Assembly: GCA_030694425.1 (NCBI GenBank)
Contig: JAUXYI010000083.1
Span: forward strand, 1 to 33,532
DNA from: Thermodesulfovibrionia bacterium
GTDB taxonomy: Bacteria > Nitrospirota > Thermodesulfovibrionia > UBA6902 > BMS3Bbin08
DNA: 33,532 nucleotides
Direction of reading: 5' to 3'
The notes beneath the pieces were generated by a model that was given only the letters and a program-made list of their open reading frames with translations, had not been told where the DNA came from and ran no database searches. The first letter of the stretch is position 1. Every line of letters starts with the position of its first letter. Both the position numbers and the translations under genes were made by a program. Of this stretch, positions 7,976-33,532 are shown piece after piece.

Positions 7976-9097
7976 CTACATATATCCAATAATATTGTAA
8001 TACATATCCCTCTGGGCAGGTTTTAAAGACGCTCCTTTTATTGCATTCAGGATATCATTAATTGAAACCATATATTTCACGCCTGCTGAGGCGACAACGT
8101 TTTCCTCAATCATTGTTGAACCAAAGTCATTGGCTCCAAATCTTAAAGCAATCTGGGCAAGTTTTAGACCCTGCGTTACCCATGACGCCTGAATATTAGG
8201 AACATTATCAAGATAAATCCTTGAGAGCGCAAGCACCCGTAGATATTCAACTGCAGTAGCTCCGTATCGTACTGCGTGATGCGTTCTGCGTAATGCGTTT
8301 TTACGCTGTACGCTGTACGCTGTACGCTGTGCTAATTCTGTGTTCCCCGGCTGAAAGCTCCATGGGATAAATGCAGTAAAGCCGTGTGTTTTATCCTGAA
8401 GTTTGCGGATGGCATCAAGATGTTCAACAATGTCCTCCGGCTTTTCAATGCTTCCAAACATCATGGTTGCAGTTGTCTTGATTCCGAGCTTGTGAGCTTC
8501 TTCCATCACCCTTAGCCATCTATCTTTGCCTATTTTTTTAGGGCTTAATTTTTTTCTTATCCTGTCAGAGAGTATCTCAGCTCCGCCGCCTGGAATGGAA
8601 TCAAGCCCGGCCTCTTTTAAAATTTTTATTGTCTTTTTTAATGTAAACCCTGCCTTATCCGCTATATAAGCAATTTCAGGCGGCGAAAAACCATGGACAT
8701 GGATATTAAAATTCTCTTTGATTGATTTTAAAAGCTCAATATAATAATTGATGTCAAATTCGGGGTGAAGCCCGCCTTGTATAAGTATCTGGGTGCCTCC
8801 AAGCGCAATAGTCTCTTTTATTTTTTTAAATAGAGTTTTTTTATCTAAGACATATGCTTCTGGACTTTTCTCGTCCCTCCAGAATGCGCAGAATGAACAG
8901 CGATTTATACAGATATTTGTGTAATTGATATTTCGGTCAATAATAAAAGTAACAATACCTTTGGTATGCAGTTCCTGCCTGATCTTATCAGCCATTGTAC
9001 CGAGTCCGAGGAGGTCGGCGGATTTGAAGAGCTTTAAACCCTCTTTTTTTGTAATGCGATTAATATTTTTTTTTGTTTGGTATTTTCTATTTTTCAT
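7976..9097 (-). CDS. mqnC: cyclic dehypoxanthine futalosine synthase (radical SAM)
   Basis: MqnC of the futalosine route to menaquinone: a radical SAM enzyme that cyclises dehypoxanthine futalosine. The 4Fe-4S ligands are C63, C67 and C70 in NICINRCSFC. Family motifs include IQGGLHPEF, GLDSIPGGGAEIL, MMFG and AFIPWSFQPGNTEL. The 373 residues are slightly long because residues about 256-277 are encoded by a 63-bp stretch of nine 7-bp repeats, inserted after the PGNTEL segment in a loop that varies in the family. Outside it the sequence is intact, so the enzyme is probably active. It follows mqnE on the same strand with a repeat (9116-9184) in the gap. No clear Shine-Dalgarno; TGTTAT ends 6 nt before the ATG. 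Confidence 0.93.
   Translation of the reverse strand: MKNRKYQTKKNINRITKKEGLKLFKSADLLGLGTMADKIRQELHTKGIVTFIIDRNINYTNICINRCSFCAFWRDEKSPEAYVLDKKTLFKKIKETIALGGTQILIQGGLHPEFDINYYIELLKSIKENFNIHVHGFSPPEIAYIADKAGFTLKKTIKILKEAGLDSIPGGGAEILSDRIRKKLSPKKIGKDRWLRVMEEAHKLGIKTTATMMFGSIEKPEDIVEHLDAIRKLQDKTHGFTAFIPWSFQPGNTELAQRTAYSVQRKNALRRTHHAVRYGATAVEYLRVLALSRIYLDNVPNIQASWVTQGLKLAQIALRFGANDFGSTMIEENVVASAGVKYMVSINDILNAIKGASLKPAQRDMYYNIIGYM
8269..8331. repeat. heptad-repeat element inside mqnC
   Basis: Nine consecutive heptamers: GTACTGC, GTGATGC, GTTCTGC, GTAATGC, GTTTTTA, then CGCTGTA three times and CGCTGTG. The left arm (TGCGT-rich) is partly complementary to the right arm (ACGC-rich), so the DNA or RNA can fold back. 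63 bp keeps the mqnC frame. Confidence 0.85.
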
Positions 9098-9220: not shown

Positions 9221-10408
9221 TCACTCTAAATTTTTAACTGGTTTATAAAACGAATCCCTTTCCACTGGAACCTTGCCTGCTTTTTTGATTAAGTTTATCA
9301 ATTCAGCTTTGGACATTGCTTTTTCCGAGAGTGCACCAGCTGAATGTGTAATTTTCTCTTCTATTATTGTTCCATCTAAGTCATCTGCCCCGAACATAAG
9401 GCTGAGCTGTGCAATTTTCTCGCCAAGCATTATCCAGTAAGCCTTAATATGAGGGAAGTTATCAAGGAAAAGTCTTGAAATTGCAATTGTTTTAATGTCG
9501 TCAATGCCATTAGAGTGAACAGTGAACAGCCCGCCCCGCTTCGCAGAGCGAGGCCGGGGTGAACAGTGAACAGTTTTAGATAATCTCGTATTTTTTGGAT
9601 GAAATGATAGGGGAATAAAAGCCTGAAAACCTCCTGTCCTGTCCTGAAGCTCTCTCAGTTTGAGCATATGTTCAACTCTATGTTCATATGTTTCGTGGTG
9701 TCCATAAAGCATGGTTGCATTTGATTTAATGCCGATACTGTGAGCCTTTTCCATGACTTCAAGCCACCTTTTACCATTTATTTTTTCAGGACATATTTTC
9801 GCCCGCACTTTTACATCAAATATTTCAGCGCCTCCGCCGGGGATTGAATCAAGCCCTGCACTTTTTAATGCCTTAAGAGTATCAGTAAGACTCAGTCCGC
9901 TTGTTTTAGAGAAATAATCTATCTCAACTGCTGTAAATGCCTTTATATGAATATGCGGAAAGGATTTTTTAATCTGCCTCAGCATCTCAAGATAGAAATC
10001 AAATGGCCAGTCAGGATGAAGCCCGCCAACGATGTGAACCTCTGTAAAAGGCAGTGATGAGTGACGAGTGACGAGTGACGAGTTCAGTTTATCCTGCCCC
10101 TGACCCCTGACCCCTGACCCCTCTGTTCCGAGTTTTTTGATAATATCTTTAATACTTAATTCATATGCGCCTTTTTCGCCTTTTGAGCGGCTGAATGCAC
10201 AGAATTTACAGCGATTGACACAGATATTAGTAGGGTTTATGTGATGGTTTTGAACAAAATATGCATTATTCCCGTTTATCCTGTAAGCAACCTGAGATGC
10301 AAGCCTGCCAAGTGTGAAAATATCCTCACTATGGAAAAGGATGAGGGCGTCATCAGGCGTAAGACGCTTTCGAGAAAAAACCTTATCTTCGATTTTTTTA
10401 AGGGACAT
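9221..10408 (-). CDS. mqnE: aminodeoxyfutalosine synthase (radical SAM)
   Basis: MqnE, the radical SAM enzyme that joins 3-[(1-carboxyvinyl)oxy]benzoate with SAM to make aminofutalosine, early in futalosine-type menaquinone synthesis. Cluster ligands are C63, C67 and C70 (NICVNRCKFC). MqnE-specific motifs are EVHIVGGLHPD, KAFTAVEIDYF, GLDSIPGGGAEIF, NATMLYGHHET and FIPLSFHPKNT. The 395 residues include two repeat-encoded insertions: about 95-118, just before the EVHIVGG strand, and about 279-298, after the PKNTRL segment. The second lies at the equivalent loop where mqnC has its insert. Core motifs are intact, so function is probably kept. First gene of the mqnE-mqnC pair; mqnA, mqnB and mqnD are not in the window. 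No Shine-Dalgarno; TATTAT lies 6 nt before the ATG. Confidence 0.93.
   Translation of the reverse strand: MSLKKIEDKVFSRKRLTPDDALILFHSEDIFTLGRLASQVAYRINGNNAYFVQNHHINPTNICVNRCKFCAFSRSKGEKGAYELSIKDIIKKLGTEGSGVRGQGQDKLNSSLVTRHSSLPFTEVHIVGGLHPDWPFDFYLEMLRQIKKSFPHIHIKAFTAVEIDYFSKTSGLSLTDTLKALKSAGLDSIPGGGAEIFDVKVRAKICPEKINGKRWLEVMEKAHSIGIKSNATMLYGHHETYEHRVEHMLKLRELQDRTGGFQAFIPLSFHPKNTRLSKTVHCSPRPRSAKRGGLFTVHSNGIDDIKTIAISRLFLDNFPHIKAYWIMLGEKIAQLSLMFGADDLDGTIIEEKITHSAGALSEKAMSKAELINLIKKAGKVPVERDSFYKPVKNLE
9515..9572. repeat. heptad-repeat insertion in the 3' half of mqnE
   Basis: Two GTGAACA heptads (9515-9528), a 30-nt GC-rich palindromic centre (CCCCGCTTCGC...GCGAGGCCGGGG) and two more GTGAACA heptads (9559-9572). 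It is translated in frame as part of MqnE. Confidence 0.8.
10056..10125. repeat. heptad-repeat insertion in the 5' half of mqnE
   Basis: Ten heptads in one phase: GATGAGT, three GACGAGT, TCAGTTT, ATCCTGC, three CCCTGAC and CCCTCTG. Translated as a low-complexity G/S/Q-rich loop between KKLG and EVHIVGG. Confidence 0.85.
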
Positions 10409-11606: not shown

Positions 11607-11789
11607 TTAGCGTCTGCCCTCTTCTATTTTCTCTGCCTCATCAATAAGCATCACGGGTATATCATCTTTTATGTGATAAAGAAGTTTGCACTTATCGCAG
11701 ATGAGACCGTTTTGGGATTCATTTAACCTTACATCTCCCTTACACTTAGGACATGCCAGTATTTCAAGCAACTCTTTACTAATAGGCAT
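11607..11789 (-). CDS. Trm112-like zinc-ribbon protein (YcaR type)
   Basis: A 60-residue Trm112/YcaR-family protein with two CxxC knuckles (CPKC near 13-16 and CDKC near 31-34) that could bind one zinc ion. In other organisms Trm112 proteins activate methyltransferases; bacterial members are mostly uncharacterised. The protein begins MPISKELLEILACP, the usual start for this family, with IPVMLIDEA at the end. AAAGGAG lies 7 nt before the ATG. An inverted-repeat element (11807-11952) sits just upstream, so the promoter must lie in or beyond it. A partner methyltransferase is not adjacent. Confidence 0.85.
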   Translation of the reverse strand: MPISKELLEILACPKCKGDVRLNESQNGLICDKCKLLYHIKDDIPVMLIDEAEKIEEGRR

Positions 11790-11806
11790 TGTTAACTCCT
11801 TTCTAC

Positions 11807-16493: not shown

Positions 16494-18974
16494 TTTTGTT
16501 GCAACTTCTTCCTTGATGTAATCTTCAAAGATGTCCCCGACTTTGATGTCGTTAAAGTTTTCTATCATAATACCGCACTCATAACCAGCCTGAACTTCTC
16601 TCACGTCATCTTTAAATCTCTTGAGGGATGCTATCTTGCTGTCGTATATAACGATATTGTCTCTTATGATTCTTATTCCTGAACTTGCCCTTGTTATGGC
16701 GCCGTCAAGGACATAACACCCTGCAACTGTTCCTACTTTTGATATAGTGAAGGTCTGCCTGACTTCGGCCCTGCCGAGGATTTTCTCTATAATGGTTGGC
16801 TCAAGAAGCCCTTCCAATGCCTTTTTAACATCTTCAATGGCATCATAGATAATATTATAAATCCTTATATCCACTCCCTCTTTTTCTGCCAGAGAATGAG
16901 CCTTTGCATCAGGCCTTACGTTAAACCCTATAATAATGGCATTAGATGCAGAGGCAAGCATAACATCGGACTCATTTATTCCTCCTACGCCTGAATGAAT
17001 TACTTTTACCTTAACCTGTGGATGGCTGAGATTCTCAAGAGCATCTTTAACAGCTTCAGCAGAACCCTGAACATCAGCCTTTATGATGATATTCAGATCT
17101 TTTATTTTGCCTTCTTTTATTTTGGCATATAATTCATTGAGGGTAAGTTTTCTTGCTTTTGCAATTTCGCCAGACTTCTGTTTTTGAAGTCTGTTCATTG
17201 CTACCTGCTTTGCTTTTCTTTCGTCCTCAACGACCACAAAGATTTCGCCTGCCTGAGGGATGCCGGGAAAACCAATAACTTCAACAGGCGTTGACGGTCC
17301 GCATTTTTCAATTCTGCGGCCGATGTCATCAGTAAGAGCTCGAACTTTGCCTGCAAGCGTGCCCGCAATAAATATATCTCCCACTTTGAGCGTACCTGAA
17401 TTAACAATGACCGTTGCTACAGGACCCCTGCCTTTATCAAGTTTTGACTCAATTATTGTGCCCTTTGCATGTCTGTTGTAATCTGCCTTGAGTTCCATTA
17501 CCTCTGCCTGCAGGAGTATCATTTCGAGGAGGCGTTCTATCCCTGTTTTCTTCTTTGCTGAAACTTCAACAAAGATATTCTGCCCCCCCCAATCCTCAGA
17601 CACGACGCCGTATTGCGCGAGGTCATTTTTCACTTTTGCAATATTCGCCTCGGGTTTATCAATTTTGTTTATTGCTACCACTATGGGTACATTTGCAGCC
17701 TTTGCATGGTCGATAGCCTCAATGGTCTGGGGCATGACACCGTCATCAGCCGCCACCACAAGAACAACAATATCAGTAACCTTTGCGCCCCTTGCCCTCA
17801 TTATGGTGAATGCCTCGTGACCGGGCGTATCAAGAAAAACAATCTCTTTGTCTTTTAATTTTACCTTGTAGGCGCCAATGTGCTGAGTTATACCGCCTGC
17901 TTCTGTCTCTGTTACCTTTGTTTCCCTTATTGCGTCGAGGAGGGTGGTCTTTCCATGATCTACGTGCCCCATTATAGTTACAATCGGCGGCCGATGACTG
18001 AGTTTAGAAGTGTCAATTTCTACTTCCTCCATAACGGTCTCTTCACTTTCAATGTGTGTTAACTCAACCTTTATACCGAAAGCCTCTGCAGCAATCTGGG
18101 CTGCATCCAAATCTAAGGGCTGGTTTATGGTTGGCATATAGCCGAGTTCCATAAATTTTTTTATGACCTCAGGGAGTTTCTGTCCTATGAGTTCAGCAAA
18201 TTCTTTTACAGTACTGCCTTCCTGAAATTTAAGTACACGCTTTCTTGGTTGAGTTGGAAGGGGTAGTTCTTTTATTTCTGTTTCTGTTTTCTGTGAAGAC
18301 ACCTTTTTTTTGTCAAATCTTTTAAATGCTGGTTTAAAAACATGCCATTTTTTTGCAGTATCAACCCTTTTTATAGTATCAAAAGCCCTTTGCATTCCCG
18401 GCCTTCCCTTAAATTTTGGGATATTCTCTATTTCCATTTCTTTTTTGAACCTGTCAGGAACTTTTATTTCTTCTTCCTCAACCGCGGTTATATCTTTTTC
18501 TTCCATCAGAGGTTCAGAGGGGATTTCTACAGAGGGTTTGATTTCCTCTTTCTCTGCCTTTGGAATCTCTTTTTCAGCTATAGGGGTAATCTTTTTTTCC
18601 GGCAGGATAGTTTTGGGAATCTCAGCAGAAGGCATGCTTTCTGCTAATTTCTTTTTAACAATTTCTTCTTTTGTTTTCTTTTCAATTTTTTTTTCTAAGG
18701 CAGGTTTTTCTTCTAACTTTTCGATTTTCAGGGACTCTTTCTTGATTGGTTTTTTAACCTTCTCAGCCTTAGAAACACGGGGTGTTTTAGCCTGCTCCTT
18801 TTTAAGAGGTTTTTCAGCTTTACGAAGAATTTTCAAGAGCTTAGGTGTTATACTATCATCTACGATTGAGGCATGGTTTTTAGCTTCAACGCCGAGTTCT
18901 GCGAGCTTAACTAACAGTTCCTTGCTTGTAACGTTCAGTTTCTTGGCTAATTCATGGACTCGTATTTTTGCCAT
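16482..18974 (-). CDS. infB: translation initiation factor IF-2
   Basis: IF-2 brings fMet-tRNA to the 30S subunit in a GTP-dependent step. The 830 residues contain an N-terminal IF2_N helix (1-50), a long Lys/Glu/Pro-rich linker (about 52-190), a second IF2_N segment (about 248-310) and the G domain with G1 GHVDHGKTT (336-344), DTPGHEAF and NKID, followed by domains II-IV ending [18 protein letters not shown]. The last few residues (KLDA and stop) are contributed by the adjacent heptad repeat. It is the first gene of the minus-strand operon; nusA, its usual neighbour, is absent, and rpmB is divergent. A promoter is proposed at 19038-19067. An intact, essential gene. Confidence 0.97.
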
Positions 18975-28601: not shown

Positions 28602-29882
28602 ATGCCAGAAAAGTTAAGATACCTCACTTCAGGAGAATCCCATGGGAAAGCTCTGTTATGTATTATTGATGGGATATGCTCAGGGCTTTCAATCTCAAAA
28701 GAAGATATTAATAAAGACCTGCTGAGGCGGCAAAAAGGCTACGGCCGCGGCAGCCGCATGAAAATAGAATCTGATTCCGTGCAAATCCTTTCAGGTGTCA
28801 GATGGGGAAAAACCCTTGGCTCGCCAATAGCGCTTCTAATAGAAAACAAAGACTGGCAAAACTGGAAGGATATTATGAGTTCGGAACTCAGGGACTCCAG
28901 ACTCCAGACTCCAGACTATAGACTCTCTGTTACTCGTCCACGCCCAGGGCATGCAGACCTTGCAGGCGCAATAAAATATAATACCCATGACATAAGAAAT
29001 ATCCTTGAACGCTCAAGTGCACGGGAAACCGCTGCGCGGGTGGCTGTCGGCGCAGTGGCAAAGAAATTTTTATCTGAATTTAATATTAAGGTGATAAGTT
29101 ATGTGACTGAGATAGGGGGAATTAAAGCACAGAACACAGAGCACAGAACACAGAGCACAGACACATTTCTATCCTTGTTCAAAAAAGCAGAGACTTCTCC
29201 TGTGAGGTGCCCGGATAAAAGAGCAGAGAAAAAGATAATCAATAAGATTAATACAGCAATAAAAAGAGGGGACAGCCTTGGCGGAATTTTTGAGGTAGTT
29301 GCTACAGGGGTTCCGGTTGGACTTGGAAGCTACAGCCAAGGTGACAGGAGACTCAATGCAAGGCTTGCTTATGCGCTTATGGGTATTCAGGCAATAAAGG
29401 GAGTAGAAATAGGACTTGGTTTTGAAATGAGCAGGAGATTCGGATCTGAGGTTATGGATGAGATTTTCTATAGAGCACAGAGCACAGATAACCTCCCTAT
29501 ATCCCCCCTTACCAAGGGGGGAATTAAAGAGGGGTTTAGTAAAGGGGAGATGGGGGGATTTGGTTTTTACAGAAAAACTAACAATGCCGGGGGCATTGAA
29601 GGCGGCATAAGCAATGGCATGCCAATAGTTTTGAGGGCTGCTATGAAACCAATTCCTACATTAAGAACACCGCTCTCATCAGTTGATATTATCAGTAAAA
29701 AAAGTTTTAACGCAGCATATGAAAGGTCAGACGTCTGCGCAGTGCCGGCTGCATCTGTTATCGGCGAGGCAGTAGCTGCCTTTGTAATTGCTGATAGTTT
29801 TCTTGAGAAGTTCGGCGGTGACAGCATAGATGAGATTAAAAGGAATTATGAAGGGTATTTGAAGCAGATAAGTAACTTCTAA
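28602..29882 (+). CDS. aroC: chorismate synthase with repeat-encoded insertions
   Basis: AroC makes chorismate from 5-enolpyruvylshikimate 3-phosphate with reduced FMN. Signatures: [84 protein letters not shown] and [13 protein letters not shown]. The 426 residues are longer than the usual 350-390 because of three insertions: about 94-109 (ACTCCAG-type heptads), 175-187 (AGCACAG/AACACAG heptads) and 291-321 (AGCACAG plus a C/G-rich palindrome). All fall between conserved motifs and keep frame. Catalytic motifs are intact, so it is probably functional. First gene of the aroC-aroKB pair; reading frame checked across all inserts. Confidence 0.94.
28883..28926 (+). repeat. heptad-repeat insertion 1 in aroC
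   Basis: GAACTCA, then GGACTCC, AGACTCC, AGACTCC, AGACTAT, AGACTCT. Translated as the loop after the [11 protein letters not shown] segment. Confidence 0.8.
29126..29160 (+). repeat. heptad-repeat insertion 2 in aroC
   Basis: Five heptads alternating AGCACAG and AACACAG. Translated as [11 protein letters not shown]. Confidence 0.85.
29474..29562 (+). repeat. repeat insertion 3 in aroC
   Basis: Two AGCACAG heptads followed by a C/G-run repeat with the perfect stem CCCCCCTT/AAGGGGGG (29503-29521) and a second arm AGATGGGGGGATTT. This is a dispersed-type palindromic repeat translated as [11 protein letters not shown]...GEMGGFG. Confidence 0.75.
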
Positions 29883-30121: not shown

Positions 30122-31699
30122 ATGAAAATCGTTTTGACAGGATTTATGGGCACAGGCAAGACCTCAGTTGGCAGGGAGCTAAGCAGAAGGCTCGGGTACG
30201 AATTTATAGACACTGATAACCTCATAGAAGAGCAGGAGGGTATGCCCATATCTCTCATCTTCAAAGAAAAGGGCGAGGATTATTTCAGGTCAGTTGAATG
30301 TGCTGTGGTAAAAGAGGTATCAGAAAAAAACAATGTAGTGACTGCCACCGGCGGCGGGATTATTAAAAATAAAAAGAATGTGGAAAATCTTGGCAGGAGA
30401 GGGGTTATTGTCTGGTTAAAAGCAGACCCCGAGATTATTCTTAAGAGGGTTATGCTCGAAGGAGGCAAAAGACCTTTGCTTGATATTGAAGAGCCGCTTA
30501 ATGAAATCAAAAGATTGCTTGCTGAAAGAGAAAAACTTTATATGCAGTCAGATATCTCTATTTCGACAAGCTTTATAACACCAGGCGAGGCTGCAGAGGA
30601 AATTATAGAAAGACTATCTCTTGATGTGGAAAAAGTAAGGGTAGAATTAAAAGAACGGAGTTATGAAATTATTATTGGAAGAAAAACCCTTCAGAAACTC
30701 GGTCTCAGACTCATAGAATTCAGACCATCCAGTATTGCAATTGTGAGCAATAAAACTGTTTTCCCTCTTTACAAGGATGTGATTCTAAAGTCAATAAGTG
30801 AATGCGGATTAAAACCAGAGGTTTTTCTTGTGCCTGATGGAGAAGAATATAAAGACATTTTGTGGGCTTCATATTTGTACGGGCAACTCCTTAAAGCCAG
30901 GTTCGACAGGGATTCGCTTCTTGTTGCGTTTGGCGGCGGTGTCGTAGGAGATTTAACCGGATTTGTAGCCTCAACATATATGAGGGGAATAAAATATATT
31001 CAGGTTCCGACGACTCTTCTTGCACAGGTGGACAGTTCTGCAGGAGGAAAGACAGGGGTTAACCATGAGCTTGGCAAAAATATGATAGGAACTTTTTATC
31101 AGCCCTCGCTTGTTCTGGTAGATGTTGACACATTAAAAACGCTTCCGCAGAAAGAATTCAGCGCAGGCATTGCTGAAATAATAAAGTACGGTGTCATTGC
31201 TGACAAGGGGCTATTTGATTTTTTGGAGGCGAACATAAAAGACATTTTTTCGTTAGGAGACAGTCTTATTGATATAATTAAACGCTCTTGTGAGATTAAG
31301 GCTGATGTGGTCTCAAGGGATGAAAGAGAATCTGGTTTAAGAGCAATACTTAATTTCGGCCACACGATTGGTCATGCTATAGAGACTGCAACAGGATACA
31401 CAAGATTTCTTCATGGCGAGGCAATTGCAGTGGGCATGTGTGCCGCTGCACGGATTGCGGTTAGAATGGGAATTTTTCAGGGAAAAGATGCAGAGCGCAT
31501 AAAAAATCTTGTTGAACTATATAAACTGCCAAGCACAATGCCCGATGGTATTAATACCTCTGGTATTATTAATGCCATGGAGGTTGATAAAAAAGTCAAA
31601 GCTGGCAGGATAAGATTTATCCTGCCAGAGTCTATTGGTAAAGTCAGAATTGAGGAAAGTGTTGACAGGGAGCTGATTAGAGAGGTGTTGAGTTCCTGA
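30122..31699 (+). CDS. aroKB: fused shikimate kinase / 3-dehydroquinate synthase
   Basis: One 525-residue polypeptide with two shikimate-pathway enzymes. Residues 1-165 are shikimate kinase: P-loop GFMGTGKT (7-14), D-T-D after FI, and the GGG of ATGGGI. Residues about 172-525 are 3-dehydroquinate synthase: NAD site DGEEYKD and GGGVVGDLTGFVASTYMRG, VPTTLLAQVDSSAGGKTGVN, and metal ligands in AEIIKYG, LNFGHTIGHAIE and LHGEAIAVG. A comparable AroKB fusion is known in Thermotoga. All catalytic motifs of both halves are present. The ATG has no Shine-Dalgarno. The stop overlaps the convergent RND gene by 23 bp. Confidence 0.94.
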   Translation: MKIVLTGFMGTGKTSVGRELSRRLGYEFIDTDNLIEEQEGMPISLIFKEKGEDYFRSVECAVVKEVSEKNNVVTATGGGIIKNKKNVENLGRRGVIVWLKADPEIILKRVMLEGGKRPLLDIEEPLNEIKRLLAEREKLYMQSDISISTSFITPGEAAEEIIERLSLDVEKVRVELKERSYEIIIGRKTLQKLGLRLIEFRPSSIAIVSNKTVFPLYKDVILKSISECGLKPEVFLVPDGEEYKDILWASYLYGQLLKARFDRDSLLVAFGGGVVGDLTGFVASTYMRGIKYIQVPTTLLAQVDSSAGGKTGVNHELGKNMIGTFYQPSLVLVDVDTLKTLPQKEFSAGIAEIIKYGVIADKGLFDFLEANIKDIFSLGDSLIDIIKRSCEIKADVVSRDERESGLRAILNFGHTIGHAIETATGYTRFLHGEAIAVGMCAAARIAVRMGIFQGKDAERIKNLVELYKLPSTMPDGINTSGIINAMEVDKKVKAGRIRFILPESIGKVRIEESVDRELIREVLSS

Positions 31700-33532
31700 A
31701 TTTTCTGCCCCTCCACAGCATATAAATCGCTGGATAAATAACGAGCTCAAGGATTGTTGAGGTAATGACTCCGCCGACCATCGGAGCCGCAATGCGTTTC
31801 ATGACGTCTGCGCCTGTTCCGTGGCTGAACATTATGGGGATAAGCCCTGCAAGTATGACGCTTACCGTCATTATCTTCGGACGAATCCTTTTTACAGCGC
31901 CGTACATTACTGCTTCTCTCAAGTCGCCAATTGAATTCAGCTTCCCTTCCTTCTTCCATCTTTCATATGCAAGCTCAAGATAAAGGAGCATTATAACGCC
32001 TGTCTCAGCATCAAGACCTGCAAGCGCTATTATGCCCACCCATACCGCAATGCTCATGTTGTAATTTAAAAGATAAAGGAGCCAGAATGAGCCTACAAGA
32101 GAGAAGGGAACTGCAAGAAGAACTATGAACGTTTTGGTCACTGACTTCGTATTCAGGTATATGAGCACAAAGATTATGAGCGCTGTGAGGGGGATGACAA
32201 GTTTGAGTCTTTCCTGTGTTTTTACAAGGTGCTCATATTCGCCGCTCCATTCAAGGCGGTAACCTTCAGGGATTTTCATAGAAGCAACCTTTTGTTTTGC
32301 CTCGTTTACATAACCTCCGATATCCCTTCCTGTAAAATCTATGTATACATAGGCGGTCAAAAGCCCTTCTTCACTCTTTATCTGTGTGGGGCCTTTTACA
32401 ATCTTTATATCAACAAGCTCGCCTAATGGAACCTGAAGAATTTTCATTGAAGCCGGTTGAAGGCTGCTCATCGAAGTCTGTCCGAAGGATCCTGTGGACT
32501 GGCTTCCGGCTGCAGACTGCTGACTATTCATAACAGGCACAAGGACCCTTTTGAGTTTTTCAATGTCATTTCTCAATTCCCTTGAGTAGCGGACATTTAC
32601 AGGATAGCGTTCCCTGCCTTCAACAGTAATTGTCAGGTTCATGCCGCCGACCGCAGTCTGCACTACTTCCTGAATGTCATCAACATTTATCCCGTATCTT
32701 GCGGCTTCTTCACGCTTAATATTGAAATCCAGAAAATATCCTGTTGTCACTCTTTCCGCATAGACGCTTCTTGTGCCCGGAATATCTTTAATGATGTTTT
32801 CTAACTCCAATCCGAGTTTCTCTATTTCCTCAAGCTTTGGGCCTAAAACCTTGATTCCTACAGGCGTTCTTATGCCTGTAGAAAGCATGTCAATGCGGGC
32901 TTTTATCGGCATTGTGAAGGAATTTGCAACTCCCGGGATGCTCAATGCGTCGTTCATCTCATTCTTTAATCCTTCAACTGTCATCCCTTTTCGCCATTCA
33001 TGTTCAGGCTTGAGATTTATAACTGTTTCAAACATCTCAAGAGGAGCAGGGTCTGTTGCTGTCTCTGCGCGGCCTGCTTTTCCGAATACCTGCTCAACTT
33101 CGGGAATCTTCTTCAGAATCTTATCCTGCATCTGTAAGAGTTTAGATACCTCTGATATTGATGCGCCCGGCACTGTAACAGGCATATAAAAGAGTGTCCC
33201 TTCATAAAGCGGAGGCATGAATTCCGAACCGAGTTTTATAAATGGATAGGCGGTAAGCGCCATGATGATTATTGCAATGACAATAACGCTCTTTTTGAAT
33301 CTGAGGGCGAGGATTGCCACCGGCTCGTATATCTTGTGGAGGATTATGCTTATTGGATTTTTCTCTTCAGGTCTTATCTTCCCGCGGATGAAGAGCGTCA
33401 TCAACACAGGCGTCAACGTAATCGCAAGGAAAGATGAAAAAAGCATTGCAAATGTCTTTGTGTATGCCAGTGGTTTAAATAATCTTCCTGCCTGAGCCTG
33501 AAGCGTAAATACAGGCAGAAATCCTACGGTGA
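31677..33532 (-). CDS. CusA/CzcA-type heavy-metal RND efflux pump, 3' part (partial)
   Basis: The C-terminal 617 or so residues of an inner-membrane proton-driven metal efflux pump. The frame stays open to the window edge (reading TVGFLPVFTLQAQAGRLF), so the 5' part is missing; an ATG at 33446 is internal. Visible parts: helices of the first half, the second periplasmic loop with MPIKARIDMLSTGIRTPVG (a Met equivalent to one of the CusA copper/silver ligands), and the last six helices including AGLDAETGVIMLLYLELAYERW. This favours a Cus-like monovalent-metal pump over Czc, but only by motif. A Ser/Gln-rich stretch of about 30 residues near 32450-32531 is partly heptad-repeat derived. Confidence 0.9.
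   Translation of the reverse strand, partial: TVGFLPVFTLQAQAGRLFKPLAYTKTFAMLFSSFLAITLTPVLMTLFIRGKIRPEEKNPISIILHKIYEPVAILALRFKKSVIVIAIIIMALTAYPFIKLGSEFMPPLYEGTLFYMPVTVPGASISEVSKLLQMQDKILKKIPEVEQVFGKAGRAETATDPAPLEMFETVINLKPEHEWRKGMTVEGLKNEMNDALSIPGVANSFTMPIKARIDMLSTGIRTPVGIKVLGPKLEEIEKLGLELENIIKDIPGTRSVYAERVTTGYFLDFNIKREEAARYGINVDDIQEVVQTAVGGMNLTITVEGRERYPVNVRYSRELRNDIEKLKRVLVPVMNSQQSAAGSQSTGSFGQTSMSSLQPASMKILQVPLGELVDIKIVKGPTQIKSEEGLLTAYVYIDFTGRDIGGYVNEAKQKVASMKIPEGYRLEWSGEYEHLVKTQERLKLVIPLTALIIFVLIYLNTKSVTKTFIVLLAVPFSLVGSFWLLYLLNYNMSIAVWVGIIALAGLDAETGVIMLLYLELAYERWKKEGKLNSIGDLREAVMYGAVKRIRPKIMTVSVILAGLIPIMFSHGTGADVMKRIAAPMVGGVITSTILELVIYPAIYMLWRGRKFRNSTPL
32497..32531. repeat. weak heptad-repeat insertion in the RND gene
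   Basis: GACTGGC, TTCCGGC, TGCAGAC, TGCTGAC, TATTCAT in one phase, translated on the minus strand as MNSQQSAAGSQST. Degenerate, but in the same style and at a variable loop before the PLGELVDIKI strand. Confidence 0.4.

Follow-up and report, generated by a model that had tools for sequence, protein, structure and literature searches.

The mqnC gene of the source genome, whose closest relatives belong to the Thermodesulfovibrionia of the Nitrospirota, contains an insert of heptanucleotide units that is probably a single member of a large class of short palindromic repeats, each of about 60-110 bp with arms made of heptads, which disperse and, in surface loops, are tolerated and translated. Arrays of this class were abundant and almost purely of period 7, often stood as inverted pairs, included some near-identical copies at separate loci, and were located in frame in loops of housekeeping enzymes. 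The window referred to below is the whole stretch of DNA that was analyzed, with a length of 33,532 nucleotides.

The insert and its host gene

The host gene (positions 7976-9097, reverse strand) encodes the cyclic dehypoxanthinyl futalosine synthase MqnC. Its ORF of 373 amino acids scored 490.9 bits against TIGR03699 (cut-off 428.1) in one alignment, residues 13-370, that runs across the insert. This alignment and the intact frames of the relatives agreed with the in-frame placement proposed in an earlier note, which had also placed the insert after PGNTEL, a segment that it immediately follows, and had described the radical SAM motif as untouched; the cysteines C63, C67, and C70 of this motif are invariant and distant from the insert in sequence. 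In the AlphaFold2 model of the protein (mean pLDDT 86, pTM 0.87), residues 259-276 fell below a pLDDT of 50 while the rest of the fold was confident, and the insert is thus predicted to be a disordered loop. The nearest solved structure was that of MqnE (6xi9), which is also the nearest by sequence.

The insert (8269-8331) is composed of the units GTACTGC, GTGATGC, GTTCTGC, GTAATGC, GTTTTTA, CGCTGTA, CGCTGTA, CGCTGTA, and CGCTGTG. The earlier note had counted nine heptads, and nine 7-base units are indeed present, but they comprise two inverted words rather than a single nine-copy tandem array. TRF identified two period-7 arrays at 8268-8298 and 8302-8330. The former is the first arm, with heptads of the form GTNNTGC that were also apparent in the sequence, and the second arm (8302-8331) includes four heptads of CGCTGTA or CGCTGTG with 100% matches in TRF. 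Between them, a TTTT loop (8299-8302) is flanked by GCGT (8295-8298) and ACGC (8303-8306), both in the sequence and in the RNA and DNA folds. With four GTNNTGC heptads, TTTT, and four inverted CGCTGTR heptads, that is, two different words inverted around GCGT-TTTT-ACGC, the insert forms an imperfect palindrome. When folded alone, it reached -24.2 kcal/mol as RNA (z -4.0; none of 200 shuffles did as well), and the DNA fold gave -16.7 (z -4.5).

The insertion of 21 residues claimed earlier was genuine, but on balance 20 residues (60 nt) are gained, since the loop has 31 residues here and 11 in the family. The reading as a true insertion of heptad repeats, accepted in frame within a loop distant from the radical SAM motif, is supported.

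Replacement of the loop among relatives

MqnC sequences were collected from relatives within the same family, order, and class as well as from named genomes representing many phyla, and the loop was delimited by NT and the conserved YLR helix. In other phyla, it had 11 residues in nearly all sequences parsed by script and 12 in one, while several further sequences failed the parsing pattern and were judged short by eye alone. In the Thermodesulfovibrionia, the loop ranged from roughly 16 to 70 residues, with some class members at 11-18. Its filling differed in almost every genome of this class, the sequences being repeat-derived and unrelated to one another. Most were heptad-like, for example SQKSEVRSQKSK.., GVKSEELRVKS.., GVRDQGLG.., and QQSAVSGQRSA.., and others were palindromes of different kinds, including PPSPPFTKRG, GRGTARRAP, and RRGVLPCAPTGA. 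The self-match over the inserts was 0.51 at a shift of 7 and 0.43 at a shift of 14, compared with 0.24-0.32 at other shifts, and 43 period-7 arrays were found in the loops versus three elsewhere in the mqnC genes. The fillings were in frame and stop-free in all genomes examined, and the only two stops in the extracted frames were both upstream of the start. An ordinary conserved family loop, under which relatives would carry the same 21 residues, was ruled out because they have different residues at this site, and the reading as an insertion stands.

The pace of replacement was evident among sister species in a tree built from the MqnC protein with the loop removed. In two sister pairs, G029 with G031 and G006 with G011, the flanking DNA was 92% identical and the fillings were unrelated, starting and ending at nearly the same codon positions. 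The steps of 21 bp, which the earlier note had expected between strains, were not observed between species: among 34 genomes, the excess lengths covered all residues modulo 7 with no preference (chi-square p = 0.38), as the fillings hold spacers, inverted arms, and non-heptad palindromes besides whole heptads.

The arms covaried. Among 39 MqnC loops, pairing of the 5' half with the 3' half of the same loop averaged -17.7 kcal/mol, versus -12.1 with the halves of other genomes. Once row and column effects had been removed, the observed value was not reached in any of 20,000 permutations, although the comparisons are not fully independent owing to shared ancestry among species. Only about half of these 39 loops folded better than shuffles, so that the hairpin is common, not universal.

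A second hypervariable loop was found in mqnE (9221-10408), where an in-frame insert at 10053-10122 consists of AGTGACG and CCCCTGA arrays. Other phyla had 43 residues in this stretch, compared with 41-77 in the Thermodesulfovibrionia, where its filling is repeat-derived. The same gene also contains AGTGAAC/GTGAACA arrays at 9514-9574, in the loop homologous to the mqnC insert.

Heptad arrays and dispersed copies in the genome

Statistics for the source genome were drawn from stretches totalling 379-579 kb. In 379 kb, at a score of at least 12, 73 arrays of period 7 were found, together with 40 of period 14 and seven of period 21, while every other period from 2 to 20 had from zero to five. 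A shuffled control of 379 kb contained a single period-7 array, and the repeats are thus far beyond chance. Tandem arrays in this genome were almost exclusively of period 7, at about 17 per 100 kb, and at a lower threshold 54 of 94 lay wholly within ORFs. Adjacent arrays were mostly inverted (22 to 5; 22 of 28 pairs), with spacers of 0-63 nt among the 28 pairs. Among relatives, for which samples of 40-200 kb were used, array density lay between 0 and 42 per 100 kb, and 24 genomes summed to 187 period-7 arrays versus a mean of 12.5 per period for periods 5, 6, 8, and 9.

Some period-7 arrays were present in other phyla too. Long AGTCAGG or TGATTCC-type arrays with words like those of the Nitrospirota were seen at the Bacillota loci L135:2154-2201, L132:415-443, and L155:2224-2275. 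The source genome also contains AT-rich arrays (AAAATTC.. / ..TTTTGAT) as inverted pairs, which are mainly intergenic and rare within genes; intergenic examples are L058:2411-2504, L062:6143-6252, and L072:17626-17734.

Similarity of the mqnC insert to other parts of its own genome was partial, at 71-93% over 27-76 nt. It matched a 106-bp dispersed element at 89% over 45 nt, at three genome sites. The three copies of this element are intergenic and 92-94% alike; one lies beside mqnE in this window (C4:10425-10535), where the sequence match has a GCGTNNT core in common with the insert, and the others are on C62 and C21. With regard to MITEs, which have terminal inverted repeats and a target-site duplication, the element seemed by eye to have inverted ends, but neither a target-site duplication nor clean terminal repeats were identified. 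Additionally, an element of the cobalamin genes had 36 matches in the genome, one of them 92% over about 106 bp. Judged by sequence similarity, the 106-bp and cobalamin-gene copies are the main evidence pointing to dispersal over growth in place.

The cobalamin biosynthesis cluster itself (G000:C48, about 65.6-87.9 kb; L070:5600-20000 and L071:1-7900) carried in-frame heptad inserts in most of its genes, and family models aligned on either side of them. It included 30 arrays in 22.3 kb, whereas the density elsewhere was 12.6 per 100 kb (Poisson p 7e-21, for a region picked after seeing the excess). At L070:9737-9850, 11719-11800, and 16507-16600, CAGAACA arrays inside genes are directly followed by a palindrome of the NPPxPPxNKG type, which suggests a composite element. 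Heptad arrays were also noted in the chorismate synthase gene aroC (window 28602-29882). They occupy 28893-28924, 29128-29161, and 29472-29488, and the third adjoins a palindrome of the PPLTKGG type. A low-complexity stretch, VMNSQQSAAGSQSTGSFGQTSMSSLQPAS, in an ORF of an RND-type transporter (window 31677-33446) looks like another repeat-derived insert.

Several candidate agents were considered for the spread of these repeats. REP and REPIN sequences are palindromic dispersed repeats accompanied by RAYT transposases, and the genome studied here likewise has dispersed palindromes together with seven Y1 transposase genes (PF01797). Unlike in REP/REPIN systems, no matching heptad element was found beside any of the seven, two of which were flanked by short period-8 or period-14 repeats of other words. 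Y1 counts were weakly correlated with array density among 24 genomes (rho 0.39, p = 0.06), and in view of both results a Y1/RAYT agent was dropped. Reverse-transcriptase or telomerase-like templating was likewise set aside: the genome had no match to a reverse transcriptase domain (RVT_1), and a single template is hard to reconcile with the variety of words within one genome. A known RNA family was discarded after an Rfam search of the window gave no match.

Known systems and the origin of the insert

Features of the insert are shared with several known systems. The Rickettsia palindromic elements (RPE), as summarised in PMC10969869, are small palindromic repeats that have entered unrelated metabolic genes in frame and undergo translation there. 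The mqnC insert is similarly palindromic and in frame within a protein gene. It differs from RPE, which are given as about 150 bp with a conserved peptide, in its Nitrospirota host and its arms of degenerate heptad arrays, in words that vary among copies and genomes, and in a different peptide in each relative. In Geobacter metallireducens, multicopy tandem heptanucleotides occur both between and within genes, some paired on opposite strands with variable spacing, and were described as putative regulator sites or RNAs (PMC2700814). Opposite-strand heptad pairs with variable spacing are found here as well (22 of 28 pairs), but the consensus words appear to differ, and here the repeats were followed across species at one protein site. 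Degenerate tandem 7-base units dispersed in the genome are also known as the cyanobacterial STRR and from Xanthomonas and Nostoc (PMC4692102), and as TAACTGA in Beggiatoaceae (PMC4679880). Those heptamers were reported as mostly intergenic with one or few words, whereas many words, inverted pairs, and many intragenic arrays were observed here, in a host that, unlike those of STRR, is not cyanobacterial but belongs to the Nitrospirota. According to PMC4692102 and PMC4679880, an excess of heptanucleotides is a general feature of bacteria and has been put down to slippage of the polymerase. The mqnC case joins known features (heptads, opposite-strand pairs, and in-frame palindromes) and adds that they are rapidly exchanged at a single site of one protein across an order, a situation for which a limited literature search found no describing paper.

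On the best reading, by analogy, the elements may work like RPE and resemble in appearance the heptanucleotide pairs of G. metallireducens, and the MqnC loop would be a place where small repetitive DNA lands and is turned over. A new element would land in the permissive disordered loop or overwrite an old one, selection would purge versions that are out of frame or bear stops, and the ribosome would translate the survivor. Slippage and hairpin-templated copying would afterwards make the heptads more uniform, both inside each arm and from one arm to the other, so that the word would change fast while the hairpin layout persists. With respect to MqnC, it is most likely a selfish or neutral element.

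Growth in place, in which replication slippage with a preference for 7 nt and hairpin template switching build and rewrite arrays in a permissive loop with no mobile element, is a possible but rather unlikely alternative. It would draw on the slippage invoked for the bacterial heptanucleotide excess (PMC4692102, PMC4679880), on the register of some arrays with the host GAGTTA (Glu-Leu) codons, and on the covariation of the arms, as expected from templated copying. The near-identical 106-bp copies at separate loci, however, require copying between loci, sister species show wholesale replacement of the filling, and non-heptad palindromes (GTAGGGGC.., CCCCCTTT..AAAGGGGG) occupy the same MqnC site. 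Covarying arms would also fit a hairpin kept for protein binding or translation control, as has been proposed for the repeats of G. metallireducens (PMC2700814) and Beggiatoaceae (PMC4679880), and the repeats are concentrated in the cobalamin cluster and present in menaquinone genes. Such a functional RNA or regulator site is nonetheless improbable, given that about half of the MqnC loops fold no better than shuffles, that words and lengths differ between sister species, and that the window is without an Rfam match.

Phase variation, with gain and loss of 7-bp units switching mqnC on and off, has a precedent in the 7-bp repeat contingency loci reported from Haemophilus, and since 7 is not a multiple of 3, single-unit slips would shift the frame. 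The site was in frame and stop-free in every genome examined, though, the array lies deep within a biosynthetic gene, and similar arrays occur in many housekeeping genes, which makes this explanation very improbable. An assembly artefact is the least credible of all: the draft genome comprises 101 contigs and repeats can mis-assemble, but many independent assemblies, including single-contig ones, showed similar in-frame fillings at the same codons.

The bacterial excess of heptanucleotides has been recognized for years, and no explanation for it has gained acceptance. As a conserved enzyme provides fixed flanks on both sides, the turnover of elements can be read here as a comparative experiment over dozens of species. 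It is conceivable, though unlikely, that a new copying system spreads palindromes built from a strict unit of 7 nt and exchanges them time and again at identical codons in conserved enzymes; if so, the MqnC loop, with a second one in MqnE, would be a natural record of the element family active in each lineage. At a single site, housekeeping enzymes take up anything between a few and about 60 unrelated residues and still remain in frame. Loops of this kind amount to a natural inventory of tolerated insertions, useful in protein engineering and in studies of protein evolution, and their origin from repeats deserves the attention of annotators.
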